A stretch of 64,000 nucleotides of DNA from Amphiura filiformis (lineage: Eukaryota > Echinodermata > Ophiuroidea > Amphilepidida > Amphiuridae): contig NC_092628.1 of NCBI RefSeq assembly GCF_039555335.1, positions 34,866,965-34,930,964 of the forward strand, read 5' to 3'. Of the stretch, positions 8,570 to 64,000 are shown one piece after another. The notes beneath the pieces are model-generated. The model was not told the DNA's origin, did no database searches, and saw only the letters and a list, made by a program, of their open reading frames with translations. Both the position numbers and the translations under genes were made by a program. Positions within the stretch are counted from its first letter, which is position 1, and each line of letters opens with the position of its first letter.

Positions 8570-8955
8570 CATGTTTTTGACCAAAAATCAGATTTTGACC
8601 AAAAATCACATTTTGACCAGAAATCAAATTTTGACCAAAAATCACATTTTTGACCAAAATCACATTTTGACCAAAAATCAAATTTTGACCAAAAATCACA
8701 TTTTGACCAAAAATCACATTTTGACCAAAAATCACATTTTTGACCAAAAATCACATTTTGACCAAAAATCACATTTTTGACCAAAAATTACATTTTGACC
8801 AAGATTCACATTTTTGACCATAAATCACATTTTTGATCTTTGACTAAAATAACATATTTTGAAATAAAAACACATTTTTGACCAAAAATCACATTTATGA
8901 CCCAAAATCACATTATTACCTAAAACACATTCTGTACAAAATCACATTTTTGTTT
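8570..8955. repeat. Minisatellite of 17-18-bp unit (TTTTGACCAAAAATCACA)
   Basis: More than twenty tandem copies of TTTTGACCAAAAATCACA, regular up to about 8780 and decaying towards 8955. The unit is partly self-complementary (TTTTGA/TCAAAA words). One and a half units reappear at 12610-12643. Confidence 0.9.
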
Positions 8956-27829: not shown

Positions 27830-28960
27830 ATTACCTATACCCATACCACAGTTTATATACTAATTTGACCTCATAACTCTGAAATGACCTTCCAAAAATT
27901 TGGCTTTAAATGGTGACTGTACCCACCAAGTTTCATGCCCATACAACTGTTTATACTGATTTGACCTCAGATGGCCCCTGGTGACCCTGGCTCTAACCCC
28001 TCGTCGCCAAATATGTGCCTGGACACCTCGAATAAGCCGTAAAGTCCCCCTCTGGTCATTTGTACTTTTTTACATATTTGCAAAGAGCATGTTTCAGGGA
28101 TTAAAATGACACCTCAATGAACTTCATATGACAATCAGAAGCGAAGTTATGGCTTGTTATAGGTTGCCATGAATCAAAAAGCGAAACCAAGAAAAAACGT
28201 GCTCAAAGTTAGGGAAGCAAAATCACCTTTCATCAGATGGGCCTCAGAAAATGTAGATTATTTCATATTTCCACTTATTTCTTTAAAATAAAACTTTGTA
28301 TGTGTTTAGAAGAAAGCTTAAACATTTCAAATCTGCAAAAATCTCAACTTCGCTTAAAATACGAGATTTGCATATATTTTCACATGTAGCTCGAAATGAA
28401 GTTTGCCGAGTTTACGGCTCATTCGCCGCGTCCAGCCACATATAATGTAGTTAATCAGACACACAAATATGATGTTGTGACTCGGACATGTTCTTATTCT
28501 TGAGTGCCGTTTCACACAGGGTTGACATACTATCTTAGATTAAGTTAGATACATAAGGTTGACATCCTGATACATGAATATCAGAGGGTGTAAGACACTA
28601 CAGACTGTACCCACCCATATGACAAATTGACCTCAGATAACCCCTAGTGACCCCCAAATGACCTTCCCAAAATTTGGCTCTAAATGGTGACTGTACCCAC
28701 CAAGTTTCATGCCCATCCAACAGTTACTAATTTGACCTCAGATATCCCCTTGTGACCCCAAAATGACCTTCCAAAATTTTGGCTCTAAATGTTGACTGTA
28801 CCCACCAAGTTCCATGCCCATATGACAGTTTTTACTAATTTGACCTCAGATAACCCCTGGATGACATTGGGTAACCTTGACCCACAAAACAAACTTGTTC
28901 TGTTCTGGTTCATGATGCACCCACCCACCAAGTTTGAGGAACATGCGACCCCTAAATAGT
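27830..28960 (-). repeat. 108-bp monomer array, third locus (reverse orientation)
   Basis: Monomers read on the minus strand as at 39.7-40.5 kb. Plus-strand landmarks are TTTGACCTCA, TGACCC, AATGACCTTCC, AATTTGGCTCTAAATG and GACTGTACCCACCAAGTTTC, recurring from about 27860 to 28830. A stretch at 28090-28590 of unrelated sequence interrupts it. The end near 28850-28960 matches the complement of the leader at 39575-39660 (AACTTGGTGGGTGGGTGCAT). Confidence 0.8.
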
Positions 28961-36478: not shown

Positions 36479-37545
36479 TATGTTGTACCTGCAAATTTGA
36501 GGTCTTAAAGCTCTTACGGATTTTCTGTGGCAGCCATTGAAAGTTGGAGTAGGGGAGTCTAAATTTGGACCCAAAAGTTGCCCTTTAAATAAATTTCATC
36601 TTTGGGAGTCTGTGCCTTCTTTATAAAAAGAGAGAGAGATCTGAAACTTTGTATACACACTAACTGCATGCCCTATTTGTCAAAAAGTATTAAAAAAATT
36701 CTGTAATTGCGCATTGTGTCACGGGGTCATTTAATATGCAAGAAAAAATGTAGTCTCCTACGCAGCCAGTTTGGTTACGCTCCCTCCACACAAACAGTCT
36801 GCCAATGACCATGTATACGGCGTTTCTGATTAGCTAAGAGGCGACAATGCAAAGTCAATGAGAACCGAACAGCAGTGCTGCATCCGGGAACTTGATTGCC
36901 CGTGGGTTGAACTCCTGGCTAAATAATCAGATACGCAAGCAGCACGTGCTGGATGACGTCATCAGCCGTGGAGACTAGAAAAAATGTAATGTTTTGTAAA
37001 CTGGCAAGTTTAGCCCCCATACATGTAAATTCACATTTTTTGTCAGATTTATTATTTTTTGTTGTTACTGATGCTATACTAGCTTGAGTATAGAGCCTCT
37101 GCCAATGCCCAATATAGTACAAGTAATTATGAGGTCTGCGGCGCTACGCGCCTCTTCACACCTCGGCGCTGCGCGCCTCGAAGTCGGCGCTAGGCGTCTC
37201 TACTGTTGGACATCGCGATCCGAGGGAACTGACCAAGTTCTAATGCTATACATGATACATAGGATAAATACAATGCATATCCAAAAAATTGAGGTCACAA
37301 CTCATTTACATTTCGAACAGCTCCCTCACAAAGATAACATTTATTGCAAATTCAACATTTTTAGGGGCCCAAAGTCGATGTGGTCCACCTTCAAAATTTG
37401 GAAAACATCACTTATATATGACTACTAGTCTTAAATTACAACTTTGCTAAGTCCCAGTAATTGTATAGGTTGACTTCATATACAATGTAAAAGACAAGCC
37501 CAAAGTTGACCATTTTCTTATGATTGCATGTTAAGAGCCAGTTGT
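36479..37545. other. No gene seen; dispersed motifs
   Basis: 36751-36790 (GTAGTCTCCTACGCAGCCAG followed by TTTGGTTACGCTCCCTCC) closely matches 25166-25205. 37137-37200 holds three iterations of CGGCGCTRCGCGCCTC, a GC palindrome. No coding support. Confidence 0.45.
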
Positions 37546-39336: not shown

Positions 39337-40500
39337 GTGAGGCATACTGTTTTTGCAATGTCTGTGCTTCCGTCCTTCCGTCCGGATGCCATATCTCAGG
39401 TATGGATGGGCGGATTGACTTCAGATTTTGAGAATAGGTGGGTCATGGTCAAAAACTCTTGGCTACTTTTTTTTGGGTGAGGTTCAAGGTCATATACTGA
39501 GGTAAAAGGTCATTTGAGTTCAGGGGGCTCATTTTCCTTATTTACCTCTTTTCTCAGAGACTAGGGGTCGCATGTTCCTCAAACTTGGTGGGTGGGTGCA
39601 TCTTGACCCCAGGCAGAACAAGTTTGTATTGGTTAGTGGGTCAAGGTTACCTGAGGTCATGCAGAGGTCATTTGAGGTCAAATTAGCCAAAACTGTCATA
39701 TGGCCATGAAACAGTCCCCCCCATTAAACATGAAACAGGTACAGTCAACATTTAGAGCCAAATTTTTGGAAGGTCATTTTGGGGTCACCCAGGGTCATCT
39801 GAGGTCAAATTAGTAAAACTGTCGTATGGGAATGAAACTTGGTGGGTACAGTCAACATTTAGAGCCTAATTTTTGGAAGGTCATTTTGGTGTCACCCAGG
39901 GGTCATCTGAGTTCAAATTAGTAAAAACTGTCGTATAGGCATGAAATTTGGTGGGTACAGTCAAATGTTTGGAAGGTCATTTTGGGGTTATCTAAGGTCA
40001 TCCAGGGGTCATCTGAGGTCAAATTGGTAAAAACTATCATATGGGCATCAAACTTGGTGGGTACAGTCAACATTTAGAGCCAAATTTTTGGGAGGTCATT
40101 TTGGGGTCACCAGGGGTCATTTGAGGTCAAATTAGTTAAAACTATCATATGGGCATGAAACTTAGTGAGTACAGTCAACATTTAGAGCCAAATTTTTGGG
40201 ACATCATTTTGGGGTCACCCAGGGGTCATCTGAGGTCAAATTAGTAAAAACTGTTGGATGAGCATAAAACTTATTGGGTACAGTCAACATTTAGAGCCAA
40301 ATTTTCGGAAGGTCATTTTGGGGTCACCAGGGGTCATCTGAGGTCAAATTAGTTTGAACTATCATATGGGCATGAAACTTGGTGAGTACAGTCACATTTA
40401 GAGCCAAATTTTTGGGAGGTCATTTTGGGGTCACCCAGGGGTCATCTGAGGTCAAATTAGTAAGAACTGTCGTATGGGCATGACATTTGGTGGGTACAGT
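39337..40500 (+). repeat. 108-bp monomer array, locus 1, with 5' leader
   Basis: The leader starts GCCTCCACCGTGAGGCATAC (a small hairpin) and runs to about 39700. Eight monomers then follow, with GTACAG landmarks at 39740, 39846, 39955, 40061, 40169, 40278, 40386 and 40494. Each reads CATGAAACTTGGTGGGTACA, GTCAACATTTAGAGCCAAAT, TTTTGG, AGGTCATTTTGGGGTCAC, CCAGGGGTCATCTGAGGTCA and AATTAGTAAAAACTGTC. Half-sites at DR5 and DR4 spacing occur in the leader end (39654-39680) and in many monomers. Confidence 0.9.
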
Positions 40501-41010
40501 CCATCGATATTAAATACAATCAGATGTCTAACGTGCGTACTGAAGAATAGTACGAGTGCGTAACCGCATTTTCGAAAAAAGTTCCACAAATTATGATAAT
40601 GAGTTCCACAAATTATGATAATTAGTCGAATATCTGTTAATGCGCATGCGCAACATGTACAATATGCCGTACATTGTACATGCAATTTGATGAAATCTTA
40701 TGCGTCATTTTTGTTCGTCCGATCAAAAAAATTAATGGCGACTCAATTTTCACCGCTTACATTGAAATTTCACAAACTGTTCAAACCCAAGGGAACGTCC
40801 TATATTATTATAATACTAGTTCTTTGTTATTATTTACCTAATCCTCTTACGCCGTCTTCGCAATGGATGCCTGGATGTTTATGATGGGTTTTGATCGATT
40901 GGCTGTCACTCAATTAATATTTAGTTATATATTTAGTTATAATTGTTTACAGTTATTTTATAATTTTCAGTGAAGAAATGAGTTTGATAATATTATTGAA
41001 AATAACACGA
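40501..41010. other. Flank Q of composite repeat and inverted-repeat arm
   Basis: AGTTCCACAAATTATGATAAT is repeated twice at 40580-40625. Its complement-like form is at 53455-53545. Bases 40764-40800 are an almost exact inverted copy of 44793-44829. Confidence 0.6.
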
Positions 41011-53545: not shown

Positions 53546-53599
53546 CGGTTACGCCGTAATCGAAAGCATAGGCTTCTGGTTGTTAAATAGACTTCAGTG

Positions 53600-54490
53600 G
53601 TACAGTCAATGTACAGAGCCAAATGTTTGGAAGGTCATTTTGGGGTCATCCAGGGGTCATCTGAGGTCAAATTAGTAAAAACTATCATATGGGCATGAAA
53701 CTTGGTGGGTACAGTCAACATTTAGAGCCAAATTTTTGGGACATCATTTTTGGGTCACCCAGGGGTCATCTGAGGTCAAATTAGTAAAAACTGTTGGATG
53801 AGCATAAAACTTATTGGGTACAGTCAACATTTAGAGCCAAATTTTGGGAGGTCATTTTGGGGTCATCTGAGGTCAAATTAGTTTGAACTATCATATGGGC
53901 ATGAAACTTGGTGAGTACAGTCACATTTAGAGCCAAATTTTGGCAGGTCATTTTAGGGTCATCTGAGGTCAAATTAGTAAAACTGTCATACGTACATGAA
54001 ACTTGGTGGGTACAGTCAACATTTCTAAGAGCCAAATATTTGGAAGGTCATTTTGGGGTCATCCAGGGGTCATCTGAGGTCAAATTGGTAAAACTATCAT
54101 ATGGGCATGAAACTTGGTGGGTACAGTCAACATTTAGAGCCAAATTTTTGGGAGGTCATTTTGGGGTCACCAGGGGTAATTTGAGGTCAAATTAGTTAAA
54201 ACTATCATATGGGCATGAAACTTAGTGAGTACAGTCAACATTTAGAGCCAGCCAAATTTTTGGGACATCATTTTTGGGTCACCCAGGGGTCATCTGAGGT
54301 CAAATTAGTAAAAACTGTCATACGTACATGAAACTTGGTGGGTACAGTCAACATTTCTAAGAGCCAAATATTTGGAAGGTCATTTTGGGGTAATCCGGGG
54401 TCACCCAGCTTTGTATCACCTTGTGAGTACATGCCACATCACTCCCTTTGGTGGAGGCATCACGGACGACGCTTTGCGTCGAAAACCGCG
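53600..54490 (+). repeat. 108-bp monomer array, locus 2, with 3' end
   Basis: GTACAG landmarks at 53600, 53709, 53818, 53914, 54010, 54121, 54229 and 54345 give about eight monomers of the family at 39.7-40.5 kb, in the same orientation. The array ends in TTTGGTGGAGGCATCACGGA (about 54460-54479), whose GGTGGAGGC is the complement of the GCCTCCACC that starts the leader at 39337. Bases 53632-53669 carry four half-sites: AGGTCA, N5, GGGTCA, N5, GGGTCA, N4, AGGTCA. Confidence 0.9.
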
Positions 54491-54920: not shown

Positions 54921-55014
54921 CAGGCTCACCTTCCCTGGTTACTGCAGTGAAATTCTGTGATATCTGTGATAGGGTGTGTGTTCATGTGAATCAGACTGCC
55001 ATTTCTGTCAAGAG
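54921..55014 (+). CDS. Probable 5' exon of the zinc-finger gene (coding status unclear)
   Basis: 94 bases between a strong acceptor (TTGTTTTTGTTACATACAG) and a good donor (AAGAG|GTAGGT). One frame is open throughout (ending FCDICDRVCVHVNQTAISVK) and leaves two bases (AG) of a split codon. Spliced to the A20 exon, this frame stops after seven codons, so in that transcript the exon is best read as 5' UTR. Spliced directly to 57645 it stays in phase with the C2H2 frame. Composition is more balanced than the surrounding intron. No family is recognised. Confidence 0.5.
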
Positions 55015-55986: not shown

Positions 55987-56195
55987 GATGGGCCAATTAT
56001 TTTCACCATGAATTTGGTACCAGATCAAATTGGTGACTCTGACCCAGACATGCTGTGCCGGAATGGATGTGGTTTCTTTGGCAGTGTAGAATGGCAGGGG
56101 AATTGTTCCCGATGTTGGACAGGGATGTCAGCGAGTGAGAAGCTAGAAGCAATGGCTGCTACCCAGCAGATACAACTACCAGAGAATTTGACTAG
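55987..56195 (+). CDS. Exon encoding a complete A20-type zinc finger
   Basis: The likely start is ATG at 56008 in a favourable context (ACCATGA). The protein reads MNLVPDQIGDSDPD and then a textbook A20 finger: cysteines in LCRNGCGFFG...NCSRCW fit C-x3-C-x11-C-x2-C exactly, about 16-37 residues from the start, with the aromatic and glycine positions of the family. A20 fingers in ZFAND proteins, Rabex-5 and A20 bind ubiquitin or act as ubiquitin ligases; here that role is an inference. The exon ends ...ACTAG|GTTAGT and leaves two bases (AG) of a codon. The acceptor at 57645 supplies the third base (C) and continues the C2H2 frame. The exon's 5' end is in frame with no stop (DGPIIFT), so an upstream coding exon is not excluded. 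Confidence 0.8.
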
Positions 56196-56579
56196 GTTAG
56201 TTCCTCTCAACATATCAATGTTGTTAACTGGAACATAAAATGTCTATAGTGTGTCTTGTCTCAAGTTGAGAGTAACGCAGTGTTGGATATAGCTATGGCA
56301 GATTTGAATTTGTGCGATGCTAGTATACAGACAAATCGCCCTACTGCACGATTTGAATCTGCCGCTGCAAAATCCAACATGGCATTACTGTTACAGACTA
56401 TATTTATAACCTCTTCCTTATCATGTGGCACTATTATAGATGTGCAAAACAGACTTATGTGAAATGTGCTTCAGGTGCTGCACGACAAAAATAGCTACTT
56501 TAGTAATACAGGTGATGGAATACGCAATAACTAATCTTTCCCTCGAGATAGCAGAGGAATGAATAAATTAATTCTTCAT

Positions 56580-56640
56580 CTAGAAATTGAACCCGGGACC
56601 TCCCGTTTATTAAGCAGATGCACTAACCACAGCGATATCG
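56580..56640 (-). tRNA. tRNA-like sequence (SINE fragment) in intron
   Basis: On the minus strand: TCGCTGTGGTTAGTGCATCTG (box A-like, described as TCGCTGTGG plus TTAGTGCATCTG) followed by GGAGGTCCCGGGTTCAATTTC with a box B-like GGTTCAATTTC. The anticodon stem is mismatched and there is no acceptor stem, so it is a decayed tRNA-derived SINE rather than a tRNA gene. Confidence 0.5.
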
Positions 56641-57117
56641 AGGATTGACAGCATTGAATTGCTATATACATGTTAGAGGCCTTTGTTCAAATTCCCTAAT
56701 TTCTCTAGTGACTATCATGATGGAGAAATAATGATTAATTCTAGCAGATTGCTCCAGGTGCTGTCTTCTTACTCTCAGAGTGGACATTATACAAGTATGT
56801 AATACTAGTATAAATTAATGCATAGATAATTCTCACTACATGCTCAAGCTGTAGTTATACTATTATCAGGGTAGACTCGGACTAGAATTACTTCACACTG
56901 TACATGAGTTTACATGTAGTTTGATAGCCATTTTCTTCTGAAATTAATGTGAAGAATATGTGTTGCCAATCAAGTCTTATGGATATGAACAAATTTGAAC
57001 AATTATGGTAGCTAGGTTATTCATTGTTTTTGCTAAATGCACATGTTTAAAATGCATTTGACATAGGTGCTGCATTCTACTGTGTTTAGTTCTGTTTTAT
57101 GCACAGAATTAAAACCA

Positions 57118-57410
57118 GAGAACCGGGACTCGACCGCCATCTTGATACAGGCATGGAGCAAAAATTGGGGGTATTCGGTTTCCCTCGGAATGCCCTCGAG
57201 GCATTCGTTGTCATGCAAGCGACATGGATGATGGGCATTTGAGAGACGCACTTGATGCGACCTGCACTTGAGTACCAAGACGCTTCAGATGAGACGCAGA
57301 ATTGTTTTCGTTCGTCTCCAAGACCGTCGGCAAGGACCCGAATACCCCCAATTTTCTCCCCATAGCTGACGACGCGATTGTACGTGGCGGTATAGGGAGT
57401 CCCGGTTCTC
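57118..57410. mobile_element. Foldback MITE in intron, about 293 bp
   Basis: GAGAACCGGGACTC (57118-57131) and GAGTCCCGGTTCTC (57397-57410) are perfect inverted repeats. A second inner pair, AAATTGGGGGTATTCGG and CCGAATACCCCCAATTT, is also perfect. CGACCGCCATCTTG sits in the left arm. No coding content. Confidence 0.8.
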
Positions 57411-57644
57411 CTTCTCTAATTCTGTGGTTTTATGCTACTCTGTTTATCAGTCCACAACCAATACAATATGTACTGTAGTTGAAAAATTAAAGTTAAGGGG
57501 GGATTTTGGCATTTCATTGAGTTCCCATATCAGTACAAGGACTTACTAATACACAGGTATGACCATCCTATGTGCTTTAAGTTGAAACATGTTTCAAGTA
57601 CAATGTAGTTCTCAAAGTGCCTTTTCTTTCTCATTATACAACAG

Positions 57645-59211
57645 CTCTCTACAGGAGTCAAGCAAACCAGAGAAGATCCGAGTGAAATCAAAAAGAGTGA
57701 AACCAAGAAGAATGTTACAGAGGAACCCAAGTCATACCTGCATGTACTGTGGTCAGAAGTTCAAAGGTGACATCTCTCGCTACAGAGCTCATCTCTGGTA
57801 TCATCAACATAAAGTGCAGAGATTTTGGTATCAGGTAGACACCAGTAAAGGTGTCAATGTGATTAAGTCTAGGCGGAAGTTTTATAAGAAAAGGCCAAAT
57901 AGGTATATATTTTTGGGGCAAGAAGAAAGTAAAAATCTTGAAGCACAAGATTCATTATCAGTTGAAAGTAATGCCACAGAGGATAGCTTTGATGCAGCCA
58001 GTAACCTCAAGTGCAGATTTTGTGAGGCGCTTTTTACTAATGAGGACCAGCTTCTCCAGCACGAGAAATTCCACTCGACGCAGCGACCGTACACATGCAC
58101 CATTTGCGGGCAGAGCTTTAAGATACGTGGTCACCTCGCTAGACACGAGGTCATTCATCAGAGAAATGAAAAACACAGCTGTGATTTTTGCAATGCCACA
58201 TTTGCCAAGACTTCACAACTGAAGGTCCACAGAGTCATCCATTTGACAGGGAAAGAAGATGAAGATGACTCATTTGACTCGGAATTACCCACGCAAATAC
58301 CCAGCAGAATTATATACCCCAAACAAAAGAAAGTGAATCCCTTAAAGATAGTACTAGGCCAGAAATTACTTAAACCAAAATTTGAAGAGGAAGATGAAAT
58401 TGAGCTACCACCAGAAGAAGAAGAAGAAGATGATATGAATGTGGATGGGTCGGATGGGATACAGAGTATCAATATTGACTACATACAGAAGAAGGCTATT
58501 GAACAGCGTAGTGCATTAGGTGAAGGGAAGGTCTGTAACTTCTGTGACAAAAGGTGTGCTAGTGCAAGAGACTTGATGGAACATGAAAGAAAACATACCG
58601 GGGAGAAACCACACAAATGCCCAATATGCTCCATGAAAACTGCACGCAAGAGCGATCTCACCAAACACATGCGTACCATGCATCCTACTGTGCATTTCAT
58701 GCGCTGCACTGTCTGTGACGCCCTCTTCACATCGCAAGAGAAGTATGAAGCTCATCAGCAGATCCACATACCTACTGATCTCATACCACCCACTCCGCCA
58801 CCAAGCTACCTGGAAAGTTCCAGCAGTTTATTAATTGGTGATCTGGATCCAAGTGAACCGCAAGAGTACCCATTAGCACTGACAAAACATTCCAGTATAT
58901 CAGAGAAGTCTACATCACACGCTGTTTTAGGGTTGTCAATACCTAAAGTGAGGTCACCATTCCGAGCACAACCTAAAGCACCTCTTGCCTGCCAGTACTG
59001 CCCAAGAGTGTACACCATCAGGAGAGATCTCATTGAGCATGAAAGAACGCACACAGGAGAAAAACCTTACGTTTGCAATAAATGCCCACAGAGGTTTCAT
59101 CGTAAAAGCAACTACTTCCGCCATCGACAAATTTGCAAAGGGATGCCCCCAGGTCCAACAGCAACACCACTAAAAGTAATGGCCACCTCGTCAAAGATGT
59201 TTGGATGTTTT
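57645..59211 (+). other. Zinc-finger exon, frame block 1 (fingers 1-9)
   Basis: A basic leader (KIRVKSKRVKPRR) precedes finger 1 (CMYCGQKF, x13 spacing). Fingers 2-4 (CRFCEALF, CTICGQSF, CDFCNATF) follow, then an acidic linker, fingers 5-7 (CNFCDKRC, CPICSMKT, CTVCDALF), a Ser/Pro linker, and fingers 8-9 (CQYCPRVY, CNKCPQRF). Finger 9 ends H-x3-C, so it is C2HC. The frame is lost at the T4 run 59208-59211; one more T would give CFYCENTF. Confidence 0.85.
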
Positions 59212-62200
59212 ACTGCGAAAACACATTTCCTGATCAAGTTACCCTTTTAAAACATCAGAGATCACACAGCTCTACTTCTCAGCAGCAGAATTCAGCAGAG
59301 ATGAAGGCAAAGAAAGGATTGGACAGGTTATTTCCATGTCAATATTGCAATAAGCGATTTTTAAATCGGTCTGGTCTTGTTGTTCACGAGAAGAGCCACA
59401 AAGGGACATATCGCACAGTTGCGGTACTGCAGAAGAAGATTCCTTACTAGATCTGGCTTAATTACACATGAGAATATGCATATAAAAAACAAGTCACGGA
59501 TCATCAAAACAGAACCTATAGACCAAGTACCAAGTGAAACTGAAATGGCTAATGATAATCATGAGGAACTGGAAGAAGGTGCACCGGTACAAGATGATAC
59601 AACCGAGACAGAACAGTTGACTGATGAATTCCAACCACAGCAGACGTACACCATACCAATGCTACCATCATGCGATGTAAAGGTGAATGAGAAGGTCCAG
59701 GCCTACAAATGTAGATACTGCAGTAAAGTCTGTGGAAAATACAGTAATCTACTGGTCCATGAGAAGCTTCATACACATGGAAATCGTTACAGGTGTAAGA
59801 AATGTGGGAAAGGCTTTGATGTTAGACGGCGACTAAAACAGCATGAAAACACGCACAAGGAATACATTTGCAATATCTGTACTAAAAGTTTCTTGCGTCA
59901 TCTTCAGCTAATAAGACATATCAAATCTGCTCACAAGAACATGTCTTTGATGAGGCCAGTTTCAATTGCAAGCAGTCATGGTGAAATCAAGCCAGGTAAG
60001 AGAGGGTTGCTATGTATGTATTGTGGTCATCGATTTTGTCGTAAGAATAAACGACTGCTCAGCCATATGCGTAGTCATCGAAAACGCTATGGGAAGTACT
60101 GGTACATTAAGGCTGCTAATGTGGTTCCTGTTATAAGCTACACCAGTCCAGAATTATCAGTTGATGTGACAAATCAAGATGATCAAATGCCACAACAGGT
60201 CTTTTCTCCACATAGTGGCTCCGGTCCATTCAAATGCCGCTTCTGTGAAAAAAGTGTGCTCTAGGAAGATGTACCTTGAGCAACACGAGGTCATTCACAC
60301 TGCTAACAGGCGGTTCCAGTGCAACACATGTGGTTTGAAGTTCTGCAAGTTATACCAACTGACAAGGCACAGAAAGAAGGCTCACAAAGGAAGCAAACCT
60401 AGTCCAAAAATGTTCATTGAAGAAGAAGGTATGGAAGAAGAACTAGACGATTATGATGAAGAAAGTGAGGAGCACTTTGTAGAGGAAGAGAGTTATGACG
60501 AAGAAAAGAAGAGCCACGTTTGTCATTTCTGTAATGCTGTATGCGATACAAGAGAAAATTTACTGAGTCATGAGAAATCCCATAGTTCTGATGGACAGGA
60601 AGTAAGCTACACTTGCAAGTTTTGTCCGATGATGTTCTACAGACGAACAGAGTATGAACGTCATGAGAGGACCCATACTGGGGAACGCCCATACAAGTGT
60701 AACATATGTAGCAAGACATTCAATCGCACATGGAATCTGAAGATACACAAACTCAATGTACATGGGATCAAATCATCTAGGTTCAGCACAGGGATGGAAA
60801 TTACACCTGTTGTTAAGTCACCACCACAGATCCAGAGGCAACCAGACCTTTATCAAGATGATGTGGGAGGTGATGTCAAGAATGAATATACCTGCAAGTT
60901 TTGCGGAAAGCATCTGATGTCTGAGTGGAGCTTACGTGTTCATGAGAGAACACATTTGCAGCAAGAAGGTGTCCATCAGTGTCGTGTATGCGGTATAGGT
61001 TTCAATCGAGAATGGGATTTGAAACAACATCTGTGGTCTGAGCACAAAGGAAGAATGAATGCCAAGACTTGTAATATTTGCCAGAAAGAATTCGCCAACC
61101 CGTCTAACCTGAGAAAACACCTGAAGCAGGTACATTTAATCAAGAATCCGTTTGTGTCAAAGTACTCTTTGCCAACAGATCTCCCTGACATTAAAGATGA
61201 AGACATTATCACTGTAGCTCCTGCTCCTCGGCCTCAGCCTCGTCCTCAACCACCACCAGTCAGTCGCATCAAGACAGAAAATTTGTACAGTCTCAAGTGT
61301 GACAAATGTGGTAAGAGGTTCGGAGACCATCAGTCTTCGCAAGCATAAGATTACTGTGTGCGGTGGAGGGCACGTCAGTGCCACATCTGTAAACAAGTAT
61401 TTTCCAACTCATCCAATCTGAATCGTCATATCGTCTCTCACACAGGACAGAAACCACACAAGTGCACTATCTGCCAACGTGGTTTCTTCCAATCAACCCA
61501 TCTGACCAGACACATGTCTCTCCATTCTGGTAAGAGACCATTTGCTTGTAATCTTTGCAAAAGTAACTTCAGCTCACAGCCGCTGTTAGACCATCACAAG
61601 CTGAGTCATTCTTTGTCTCATGGTAAGAATAAATTGATGCAAGATGTTGCAAGCAGTCTCCAGATGAATGATGAATATCTACCGTTGGGCATGCAGGAGA
61701 CAGGTGCAGCCCCATTAGCAAGTATAAAAGGTTACAAGTGTCAGTACTGTGAAGCCAACTTCATAGACCAGGCTCAACTTCGAGTCCATGAGAGAGCTCA
61801 TCTTGTTGAACTACCATTCCGTTGTCAAACCTGTTTTAAGCTTTTTGAAACTAATGGTAAGCTTGAAGAGCATGAACAAATGCATATTGAAGGATCTGTC
61901 CAAGAGAATCAAGAATCACCAAAGAGGACTGTACCAAACCAAAGCAGTGAGGAAGTTGAGCAAAAACCTCAATTATGTGGTTACTGCTCTAAAGCATTCA
62001 CAAATGCTAATGATCTGAAGAGACATGTATTTCTTGTACATAATGTTGATGAAACCACTGTGGAACCTAAACCAGAACGGAAGCCTGCTATATCAAGTGG
62101 AGGAAACAAGGTCTATCCCTGTGTGTTGTGTAGAAAGAACTTTTCAAGCAGTTCCAATCGATCTAGACATTTTCGAATATTTCACAAAGGTAAGAAGTCG

Positions 62201-64000
62201 CTGCCAGTGCTGCCATCATTCACACCAAAACCAGTTTCTAAAGCAGCTTCTAAACCAGCCGCAAAACCAACAGCAACACCAGCAGCAACCACTTATGTTG
62301 ATCGTGCTACTAAGAGATACTATTGCATACCATGTAACAGGAGTTACAGTAGCAGTGGTAATTTATCCAAGCACAGGCGAATTCATCATGGTCAGAAGCT
62401 AAAGGTCACATCACCCCAAAAACCCATGAATCTAACCACATCTCCTGGGTTCTCTAAACCTATCCAAGATGTGCAATCATCCATGCGGTCTGTAGTAGGC
62501 TTTAGAAAGTACACTTGTCATTTGTGTAGCAAAACATTCAGCAACAGTGGGAACTTGGCAAGACACAAACGGTTGTTTCATAACCAGAGGTCTAGTATGG
62601 GGAATGTTTTAGGCAAGTTACTGCATGGAAAGCAGGTTGCCGCACAGCAGAGAAGTCAGATTTCACGAGTGACTCCTCAACAACAACCCAAATCACCGAT
62701 ACCATCTCCTGTAAAGTTGCCTGTGGTACAACAACACAAACCAGCTTTATCACCTAGATCAAAAGGTGGCAAGTTTGCTTGTAACATGTGTGATAGGTCA
62801 TTCACACAAAGTACAAATTTGTCAAGGCACAAGCGAAACTTTCATGGTGTGAAACCTAGAGTGCCATATCCTGCAGAAAAACAAGTGGTTGTAAGAAGAA
62901 AGAGAAACCGGAGAGTGGAGGTGGTGGAGTGAAGTTTGGATGCTTGTACTGTCATGAGATGTTTTCTCTTAAGTCAGCTTTGATTGAGCATCAAGCAACT
63001 CACACAACCAAATCATCGTTCATGTGTCAACACTGTGATGCGACATTTGTTGATAGTAGCGCACTCGTTGCCCATGAGAAGCAACACTTGGAAGTGGACA
63101 AAAGTATGGAATGTCGATTCTGTGGTCAAACATTCACCAACCGAGGAGGACTGACGATGCACGAGAGGGCACACAAAGGGGACAAGCGATACCAATGTCG
63201 TCAGTGCTTCAAAACTTTTTTCAACAAAGCAGGGCTAATGTCACATGAAAGATGTCATGCTGGAGATAGTCATGGTGTCAGCGAGGAAGAGTCTCCAAAA
63301 CGTAGTCGAAGCAGCAGTGTCAGCAGCAGCAACAGCACCAAGCAGTACACTCCAAGCCCTCCACACGAGAGTGCTACCAGCATCATAAAACTCAATGAAT
63401 TTACAAATGACATTGCAAGACCACATTCTTGTGAATGGTGTGACAAGCGATTTTTGACTACGACTGATTTAAAGCGCCACATCAGGACACACACAGGAGA
63501 ACAACCCTATCCTTGTCCACTGTGTCCAAAACGATTCTCGCAGAGTCAGAATCTGAAGAAGCATCTCTTTGTAATCCACAAGCAAGGCATGCCATTGGCC
63601 TCGTGGAATCTAAGCGACACCCAGATGACTGCAGCACCAGCTATGCCCATACTTACTCCAGAAAAAGCTGTCCCGGAAAGAGTTGGAAAAGGTGGCTACA
63701 AATGCAGGTACTGTAGTAAAGTATGCAGTGCACTTCAGTACTTAATGCAGCACGAAAAAGTTCACACTGGGGGTGCACCACAATTGGGGAAGAATAGAAA
63801 GAAAACGCCAGTGAAGATGTCGTTCAAGTTGCCAGCAAAAGGGTCAACAACAGAGTCAAGTTCATCAAGTCCATCAAGTAGTAGGCCTAATGGGCAGGGA
63901 AGGCGCTACCATTGTTCAATGTGTTCCAAATCATTCGGGTCATCGGGTGACCTCACACGTCACATCAGGACCCACACAGGAGAGAAACCATTTGAATGTG
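57645..64000 (+). CDS. Giant poly-C2H2 zinc-finger exon (at least 43 fingers), runs past window end
   Basis: A single exon of more than 6.3 kb, in frame with the A20 exon. It encodes at least 43 C2H2 (Krueppel-type) fingers of the form C-x2-C-x12-H-x3/4-H, plus the start of another at 64000. Some are joined by TGEKP-type linkers (e.g. after fingers 5, 8, 20, 40, 43). Acidic stretches rich in E and D separate groups at about 58383-58450 and 60415-60510, and Ser/Pro-rich linkers lie near 62215-62300 and 63280-63360. Such proteins are nuclear DNA-binding factors; the target is unknown, and no KRAB, BTB or SCAN domain is visible. Frame changes occur near 59208, 59419, 60248, 61335, 61376 and 62929. 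All fall in or beside short runs, and each correction restores a canonical finger or the open frame. No premature stop occurs within a frame block. I therefore favour sequence error over pseudogene, though a young pseudogene is possible. It matches no named gene I can vouch for. Confidence 0.9.
59212..59420 (+). other. Zinc-finger exon, frame block 2 (fingers 10-11)
   Basis: Finger 10 (YCENTFPDQVTLLKHQRSH, with its first Cys in the previous frame) and finger 11 (CQYCNKRFLNRSGLVVHEKSH, quoted as CQYCNKRF...HEKSH). The frame changes again around GTTGCGG at 59418-59424; two short-run corrections (TT and C) would supply the missing first Cys of finger 12. Confidence 0.85.
59421..60250 (+). other. 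Zinc-finger exon, frame block 3 (fingers 12-17 start)
   Basis: Finger 12 (RYCRRRFLTRSGLITH), an acidic/Gln-rich linker, fingers 13-15 (CRYCSKVC, CKKCGKGF, CNICTKSF), finger 16 (CMYCGHRF, x13 spacing), and the first half of finger 17 (CRFCEK). The frame is lost at the A6 run 60248-60253; five A bases give exact C-x2-C-x12-H-x3-H spacing for finger 17. Confidence 0.85.
60251..61335 (+). other. Zinc-finger exon, frame block 4 (fingers 17 end-25)
   Basis: The end of finger 17 (VCSRKMYLEQHEVIH), finger 18 (CNTCGLKF), an acidic linker, fingers 19-21 (CHFCNAVC, CKFCPMMF, CNICSKTF), fingers 22-24 (CKFCGKHL, CRVCGIGF, CNICQKEF), a Pro/Arg linker (PAPRPQPRPQPPPVSR), and the start of finger 25 (CDKCGKRF). 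The frame is disturbed at about 61334-61337 (a TC unit missing) and 61376 (one C missing); together they remove three bases. Finger 25 would end H-x4-C. Confidence 0.85.
61377..62929 (+). other. Zinc-finger exon, frame block 5 (fingers 26-35)
   Basis: Fingers 26-28 (CHICKQVF, CTICQRGF, CNLCKSNF), 29-31 (CQYCEANF, CQTCFKLF, CGYCSKAF), and 32-35 (CVLCRKNF, CIPCNRSY, CHLCSKTF, CNMCDRSF), the last group separated by long Ser/Thr/Pro/Gln linkers. Fingers 32-35 share an SSGNL/SRHKR core, suggesting a recent internal duplication. An apparent stop at 62930-62932 comes from a single missing G in GAG(G)TGAAG. Confidence 0.85.
62929..64000 (+). other. Zinc-finger exon, frame block 6 (fingers 36-44 start)
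   Basis: Open without interruption to the last base. Fingers 36-39 (CLYCHEMF, CQHCDATF, CRFCGQTF, CRQCFKTF), a Ser/Pro linker (RSRSSSVSSSNST), fingers 40-41 (CEWCDKRF, CPLCPKRF) joined by TGEQPYP, finger 42 (CRYCSKVC), a Ser-rich linker, and finger 43 (CSMCSKSF) followed by TGEKPFEC, the start of finger 44. Confidence 0.9.

Follow-up and report, generated by a model that had tools for sequence, protein, structure and literature searches.

A Rabex-5-like A20 zinc finger exon and its probable in-frame junction with a polydactyl C2H2 gene

The window analysed here, a stretch of DNA of 64,000 nucleotides, would contain the 5' portion of a single animal gene, in which a first coding exon (positions 55987-56195) specifies a Rabex-5-like A20 zinc finger at the N-terminus, and the next main exon, from 57645 onwards, specifies a polydactyl C2H2 protein. 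Judging from sequence features, we consider it fairly probable that the A20 exon and the C2H2 exon form one protein, either as the sole product or as one of several isoforms; A20-C2H2 would then be a probable new pairing of known domains. In C2H2 proteins, N-terminal domains largely set the mode of action once the protein is bound. If the joined protein is real, an A20 finger in this position would tie a ubiquitin-handling module physically and directly to DNA binding, and non-vertebrate C2H2 genes would gain an effector open to experiment; should the two exons prove to be separate, the window holds an ordinary C2H2 gene beside a stray A20 exon. The features central to this proposal are the following.

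55987..56195, + strand: A20 exon, 209 bases, ending in phase 2 (Pfam zf-A20, splice-site ranks, sequence)
56056..56115, + strand: A20 zinc finger core CRNGCGFFGSVEWQGNCSRC (pattern scan, C-x3-C-x11-C-x2-C; PDB matches)
56196..57644, + strand: predicted intron of 1449 bases between the A20 exon and the C2H2 exon
57645..64000, + strand: C2H2 exon, running past the end of the window (C2H2 profile, grouping, Pfam zf-C2H2 in six segments)
57646..57732, + strand: Lys/Arg-rich segment KPEKIRVKSKRVKPRRMLQR, from the junction to the first C2H2 finger (codon score reached by 0.2% of null frames, synonymous part by 2.2%)

Results

The exon at 55987-56195 encodes an A20 zinc finger of the Rabex-5 type

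Translated from its start codon (ATG 56008, with an A at position -3), the A20 exon, which is probably the first coding exon of the gene, reads MNLVPDQIGDSDPDMLCRNGCGFFGSVEWQGNCSRCWTGMSASEKLEAMAATQQIQLPENLT. Its flanks, read directly from the + strand, are an acceptor (ATAG/G) and a donor (TAG/GTTAGT). The earlier note had recognised an A20 zinc finger here from the letters alone, and the database comparisons bear this out: the exon scores 41.3 bits against Pfam zf-A20 (PF01754; cut-off 21.6 bits, E 1.4e-10), which places it in the A20 family, and Rabex-5 structures head the nine PDB matches (2c7m, E 2.5e-8; 2fid, E 7.9e-8). The next match is to ZFAND5 (2kzy, E 2.3e-4), and the fingers of TNFAIP3, the A20 protein itself, match weakly (E 0.15 to 0.51), level with a chance match to cathepsin H (E 0.23) in the same search. 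By our own count from the alignment, 14 of 28 aligned residues are identical between the exon and Rabex-5 2c7m; the four Cys residues and the WQG-x-CS-x-CW stretch are conserved, and the aromatic pair is retained as GFFG where Rabex-5 has GYYG. On these sequence matches, we regard the finger at 56056-56115 as no chance pattern.

An NCBIfam search with the A20 exon and the first C2H2 segment returned no matches. No relatives of the A20 exon were found in viral and prokaryotic contigs, nor any of a 77-residue finger stretch in viral contigs, as expected for an animal gene. The six-frame pattern scan picked up one further A20-like spacing, at 36669-36719, which was set aside when it gave no Pfam match.

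The A20 donor fits the C2H2 frame, and phase carries limited weight

The last two bases of the A20 exon, AG, open a codon whose third base is the C at 57645, in the frame of the C2H2 exon. The C2H2 frame continued through acceptor 57645 reads ...NLTSSLQESSKPEK..., and translation across the direct 56195/57645 junction gives ...PENLTSSLQESSKPEK..., so that the assertion of the earlier note that donor 56195 and acceptor 57645 are in phase holds. It was equally right that a second acceptor, 57655, is out of phase: direct joining to it shifts the frame and leads to a stop 11 codons past the junction codon. The phase fit itself is real, but as evidence it is weaker than had been implied. The two acceptors lie 10 bases apart; 57645 accepts donors of phase 2 and 57655 those of phase 0, so that phase 1 alone fails and chance agreement with either site is expected for two of the three donor phases. 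Two small exon candidates in the intron also reach 57655 in frame; phase therefore says even less, and by the same token the fusion does not depend on a single junction.

Splice sites were scored with rough weight matrices drawn up from general knowledge, and the values are approximate. Donor 56195 ranks 133rd among the 3631 GT sites of the window and third among the 89 within 56100-57640; among the 3364 AG sites of the window, acceptor 55987 ranks 50th, 57655 87th and 57645 99th. Acceptor 57655 thus slightly outscores 57645 (7.32 vs 7.04), which counts against the joined protein, since 57655 is out of the C2H2 frame if used directly. The same difference in scores speaks for a structure in which a small extra exon, spliced to acceptor 57655, bridges the A20 exon and the C2H2 part. 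At the thresholds applied, the intron contains three short stop-free exon candidates (56709-56757, 56709-56794 and 56758-56794), and the first and the last of these each connect the A20 exon to 57655 in frame. Yet all candidates are shorter than 90 bases, have modest splice scores (5.1 to 6.1) and yield no Pfam match in the frames scanned, and we hold such a structure to be very improbable.

The intron also carries nested inverted repeats (57102-57131/57397-57426 and 57148-57178/57338-57368) with arms of 30 and 31 nt that are 83-84% complementary; they resemble a foldback mobile element or MITE.

Coding signal at acceptor 57645 and the search for an upstream exon

Codon scores were trained on the finger region with the first 118 bases of the C2H2 exon excluded, and compared with a null of 4000 stop-free frames from the remainder of the window. 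The 29 codons that follow acceptor 57645 score 0.454 per codon, a value reached by 0.2% of the 4000 null frames (2.2% for the synonymous part), whereas the 19 open codons that precede it score -0.026 per codon (37% of null frames, synonymous 42%). Coding sequence thus seems to begin near acceptor 57645 rather than at the in-frame ATG at 57589. A gene whose coding signal starts there needs an upstream exon, and some exon is probably spliced on near 57645.

The strongest candidate within the window for this upstream exon is the A20 exon. A Pfam scan of the + strand from 44.0 to 57.8 kb (98 stop-to-stop frames of at least 36 aa; 101 minus-strand frames lay outside the scan) matched it alone at E values up to 0.01. 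KRAB, SCAN, BTB and ZAD, as well as Vps9, AN1 and OTU, gave no match among these 98 frames. Vps9 was also without a match in the six C2H2 segments scanned, up to position 64000, and a six-frame scan of the window, likewise to 64000, found no AN1 finger pattern. The joined protein is further favoured by the position of the A20 finger directly after the ATG, as in N-terminal A20 fingers elsewhere. Against it stands the weak codon score of the A20 exon (0.085; reached by 7.7% of null frames, synonymous part 11%), which another frame of the same stretch, one with stops, matches at 0.108.

One competitor for the upstream position deserves attention.

54921..55014, + strand: rival upstream exon, an open frame with a half finger CDICDRVC (splice scores 7.35 and 9.7; junction translations)

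Its donor at 55014 (9.7) is the top-scoring donor between 54.0 and 57.64 kb. The exon ends in phase 2 and is in frame when joined to 57645, but out of frame with the A20 exon. These properties suit a reading in which the A20 exon is part of a separate transcript, either as a stray shuffled exon or as the final, or sole remaining, exon of a Rabex-5 or ZFAND relative, and in which the start of the C2H2 gene lies elsewhere, such as at 54921-55014. Read-through of the A20 exon meets a stop at 56236, and an AATAAA follows at 56562, so the A20 exon could end another gene. The nearby sequence does not supply the remainder of such a gene, given the missing Vps9, AN1 and OTU matches in the 98 + strand frames. 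The rival exon itself offers half a finger only: at 5.9 bits, CDICDRVC is the third best of 2604 segments upstream of 57640, which is near chance, and codon usage does not make the exon stand out (score reached by 17% of null frames, synonymous part by 19%). We judge a separate A20 transcript to be unlikely.

The same exon allows a milder proposal that overlaps with the joined protein: the A20 exon would be an alternative first coding exon, and the gene would produce some isoforms that carry the A20 finger and others that lack it. Donors 56195 and 55014 are both in phase 2 and both fit 57645, and the frame soon closes when 54921-55014 is joined to the A20 exon. A loose precedent comes from KRAB genes, for which an excerpt of PMC5509000 describes isoforms that include or lack the KRAB B exon. 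Exon 54921-55014 is, however, itself a candidate, and we regard this arrangement as a minority possibility.

Joining the A20 and C2H2 exons into one protein, as the earlier note had proposed, has the in-frame junction in its favour and is the best-supported reading of the window; the proposal has to be qualified in that exon 54921-55014 fits acceptor 57645 as well.

The C2H2 exon encodes small groups of fingers

We counted 43 complete C2H2 fingers in this exon, four of them across frame changes, together with the start of a 44th. In a list compiled by hand, they fall into 23 groups of one to four fingers with linkers of up to 97 aa, a grouping that differs from one long reading array. A local C2H2 profile, built from 24 strict fingers of the exon, gave 53 positive-score hits, a number that includes chance fragments, and the finger count was drawn from these hits. 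Pfam zf-C2H2 exceeds its 25.2-bit cut-off in all six segments (four at 82 to 125 bits, two at 31 and 32), which establishes membership of the C2H2 family, and no non-finger family rises over its cut-off in these segments. The Lys/Arg-rich segment at 57646-57732 is, by composition, a possible nuclear localisation signal.

Several further features of the exon were recorded. The atypical fingers at 57739-57804 and 60013-60078 have CMYCG in common and end in similar aromatic tails (QRFWYQ and GKYWYI); by eye, they may point to an internal duplication. A sub-threshold zf-UBP match at 60012-60110 (frame 59365-60261; E 0.046, 14.4 bits against a cut-off of 22.7) covers the atypical finger CMYCGHRF... 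and is of interest next to an A20 finger; it is probably due to chance. Strong donor-like sites of the GTAAG type occur at 59995, 61529, 61622, 61856 and 62189 (scores 8.58 to 11.25) and may represent either Gly-Lys codons or internal splicing.

Frame changes in the finger region

59190..62935, + strand: stretch with five C2H2 frame changes (frame maps)

The earlier note had spoken of a giant C2H2 protein. In this sequence its reading frame is not single: it changes near 59205, at 59400-59425, near 60245, at 61325-61375 and at 62880-62930. A frame broken five times counts against the joined protein, and five changes in 6.4 kb could mean that the locus is a pseudogene in decay. Several observations oppose decay. 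All five stops that end finger frames coincide with a frame change, and no stop occurs in the 1897 codons counted; this half of the argument, which concerns nonsense mutations, is weakened because the counted segments were picked as open. The zinc ligands are retained across the breaks except for two C2HC forms (59074-59136 and a broken finger near 61298-61359). Under decay, the probability of seeing neither nonsense nor ligand loss would be 0.045 to 0.0002 if substitution-to-indel ratios of 5-10 and either 5 or 7 indels are assumed. Runs of a single base coincide with two of the five breaks (four T near 59208, six A near 60248). We favour assembly errors over decay as the cause of the five frame changes and consider a pseudogene improbable.

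Other features of the window

Similar tandem arrays of a satellite-like unit of 105-109 bases lie at 39738-40501, 53599-54403 and 28627-28858, the last with the unit reverse-complemented as seen by eye. A further tandem array at 8574-8952 consists of about 20 copies of a TTTTTGACCAAAAATCACA-like unit. Searches of the window against Rfam (gathering thresholds) and with ARAGORN gave no matches.

Discussion

A possible ubiquitin-directed function

If the A20 and C2H2 exons are joined, the A20 exon may have originated by exon shuffling from the first exon of a Rabex-5 (RABGEF1)-like gene. In Rabex-5, the aromatic pair of the A20 finger contacts ubiquitin. The finger in the window would act as its Rabex-5 counterpart does, by binding ubiquitin or by promoting mono-ubiquitination, and the small groups of C2H2 fingers would carry it to chromatin. 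A role of the A20 finger at chromatin in ubiquitin binding, or as a weak ligase, is a tentative suggestion by analogy. An excerpt of PMC7329146 is cited here for the Rabex-5-type A20 mechanism, and the portions consulted of PMC5135002 and PMC4197634 name the Asp58 patch of ubiquitin as the surface used by the Rabex-5 zinc finger. Because inspection revealed no MIU-like acidic helix after the finger, it may bind ubiquitin less tightly than Rabex-5 does.

More speculatively still, and in our view unlikely, the gene could stand for a class of C2H2 proteins, specific to one animal lineage, whose N-terminal effector is a Rabex-5-type A20 finger; guided by DNA binding, they would read or write mono-ubiquitin on chromatin as ubiquitin-acting counterparts of the KRAB and ZAD proteins.

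Comparison with known systems

Two papers that mention both zf-A20 and C2H2 treat them as separate classes. Among the matches listed, titles and the opening portions of abstracts contained no description of the pairing; subscription journals lay mostly outside the search. The COMPASS-like paper PMC3784565, whose title suggested relevance, was dismissed, as it concerns a homeodomain protein.

The closest known relative of the A20 finger is that of Rabex-5/RABGEF1, as judged by the best PDB match, the WQG-x-CS-x-CW stretch and the aromatic pair that follows CG. Rabex-5, too, has its A20 finger near the N-terminus. The window departs from Rabex-5 in lacking a Vps9 match in the frames scanned, with C2H2 fingers following the A20 finger instead, in its aromatic pair (FF rather than YY) and in the missing acidic MIU-like helix.

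ZFAND5/6 and the plant SAP proteins, which combine A20 with AN1, share with the window a single A20 finger near the N-terminus and the MLC-x3-CGF start; in ZFAND5, the finger occupies residues 10-35 of a 213-residue chain. The absent AN1 pattern and a match weaker than that to Rabex-5 set them apart.

Among C2H2 proteins, ZFP91 joins C2H2 fingers with a reported ubiquitin ligase activity, which an excerpt of PMC13061254 ascribes to the second basic zinc finger and not to an A20 finger. The same excerpt notes the activity of RABGEF1 via its A20 finger and cautions that ligase activity is unlikely to extend to every zinc finger protein. C2H2 proteins with an N-terminal KRAB, SCAN, ZAD or BTB domain are well known, and the part consulted of the C2H2 review PMC5509000, in which the term A20 has no hits, describes KRAB genes with N-terminal domain exons placed before the C2H2 exon. 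The gene proposed here would share this layout; it would differ from these proteins in that its N-terminal domain is an A20 finger and in that its C2H2 fingers are distributed over 23 short groups rather than forming one array.
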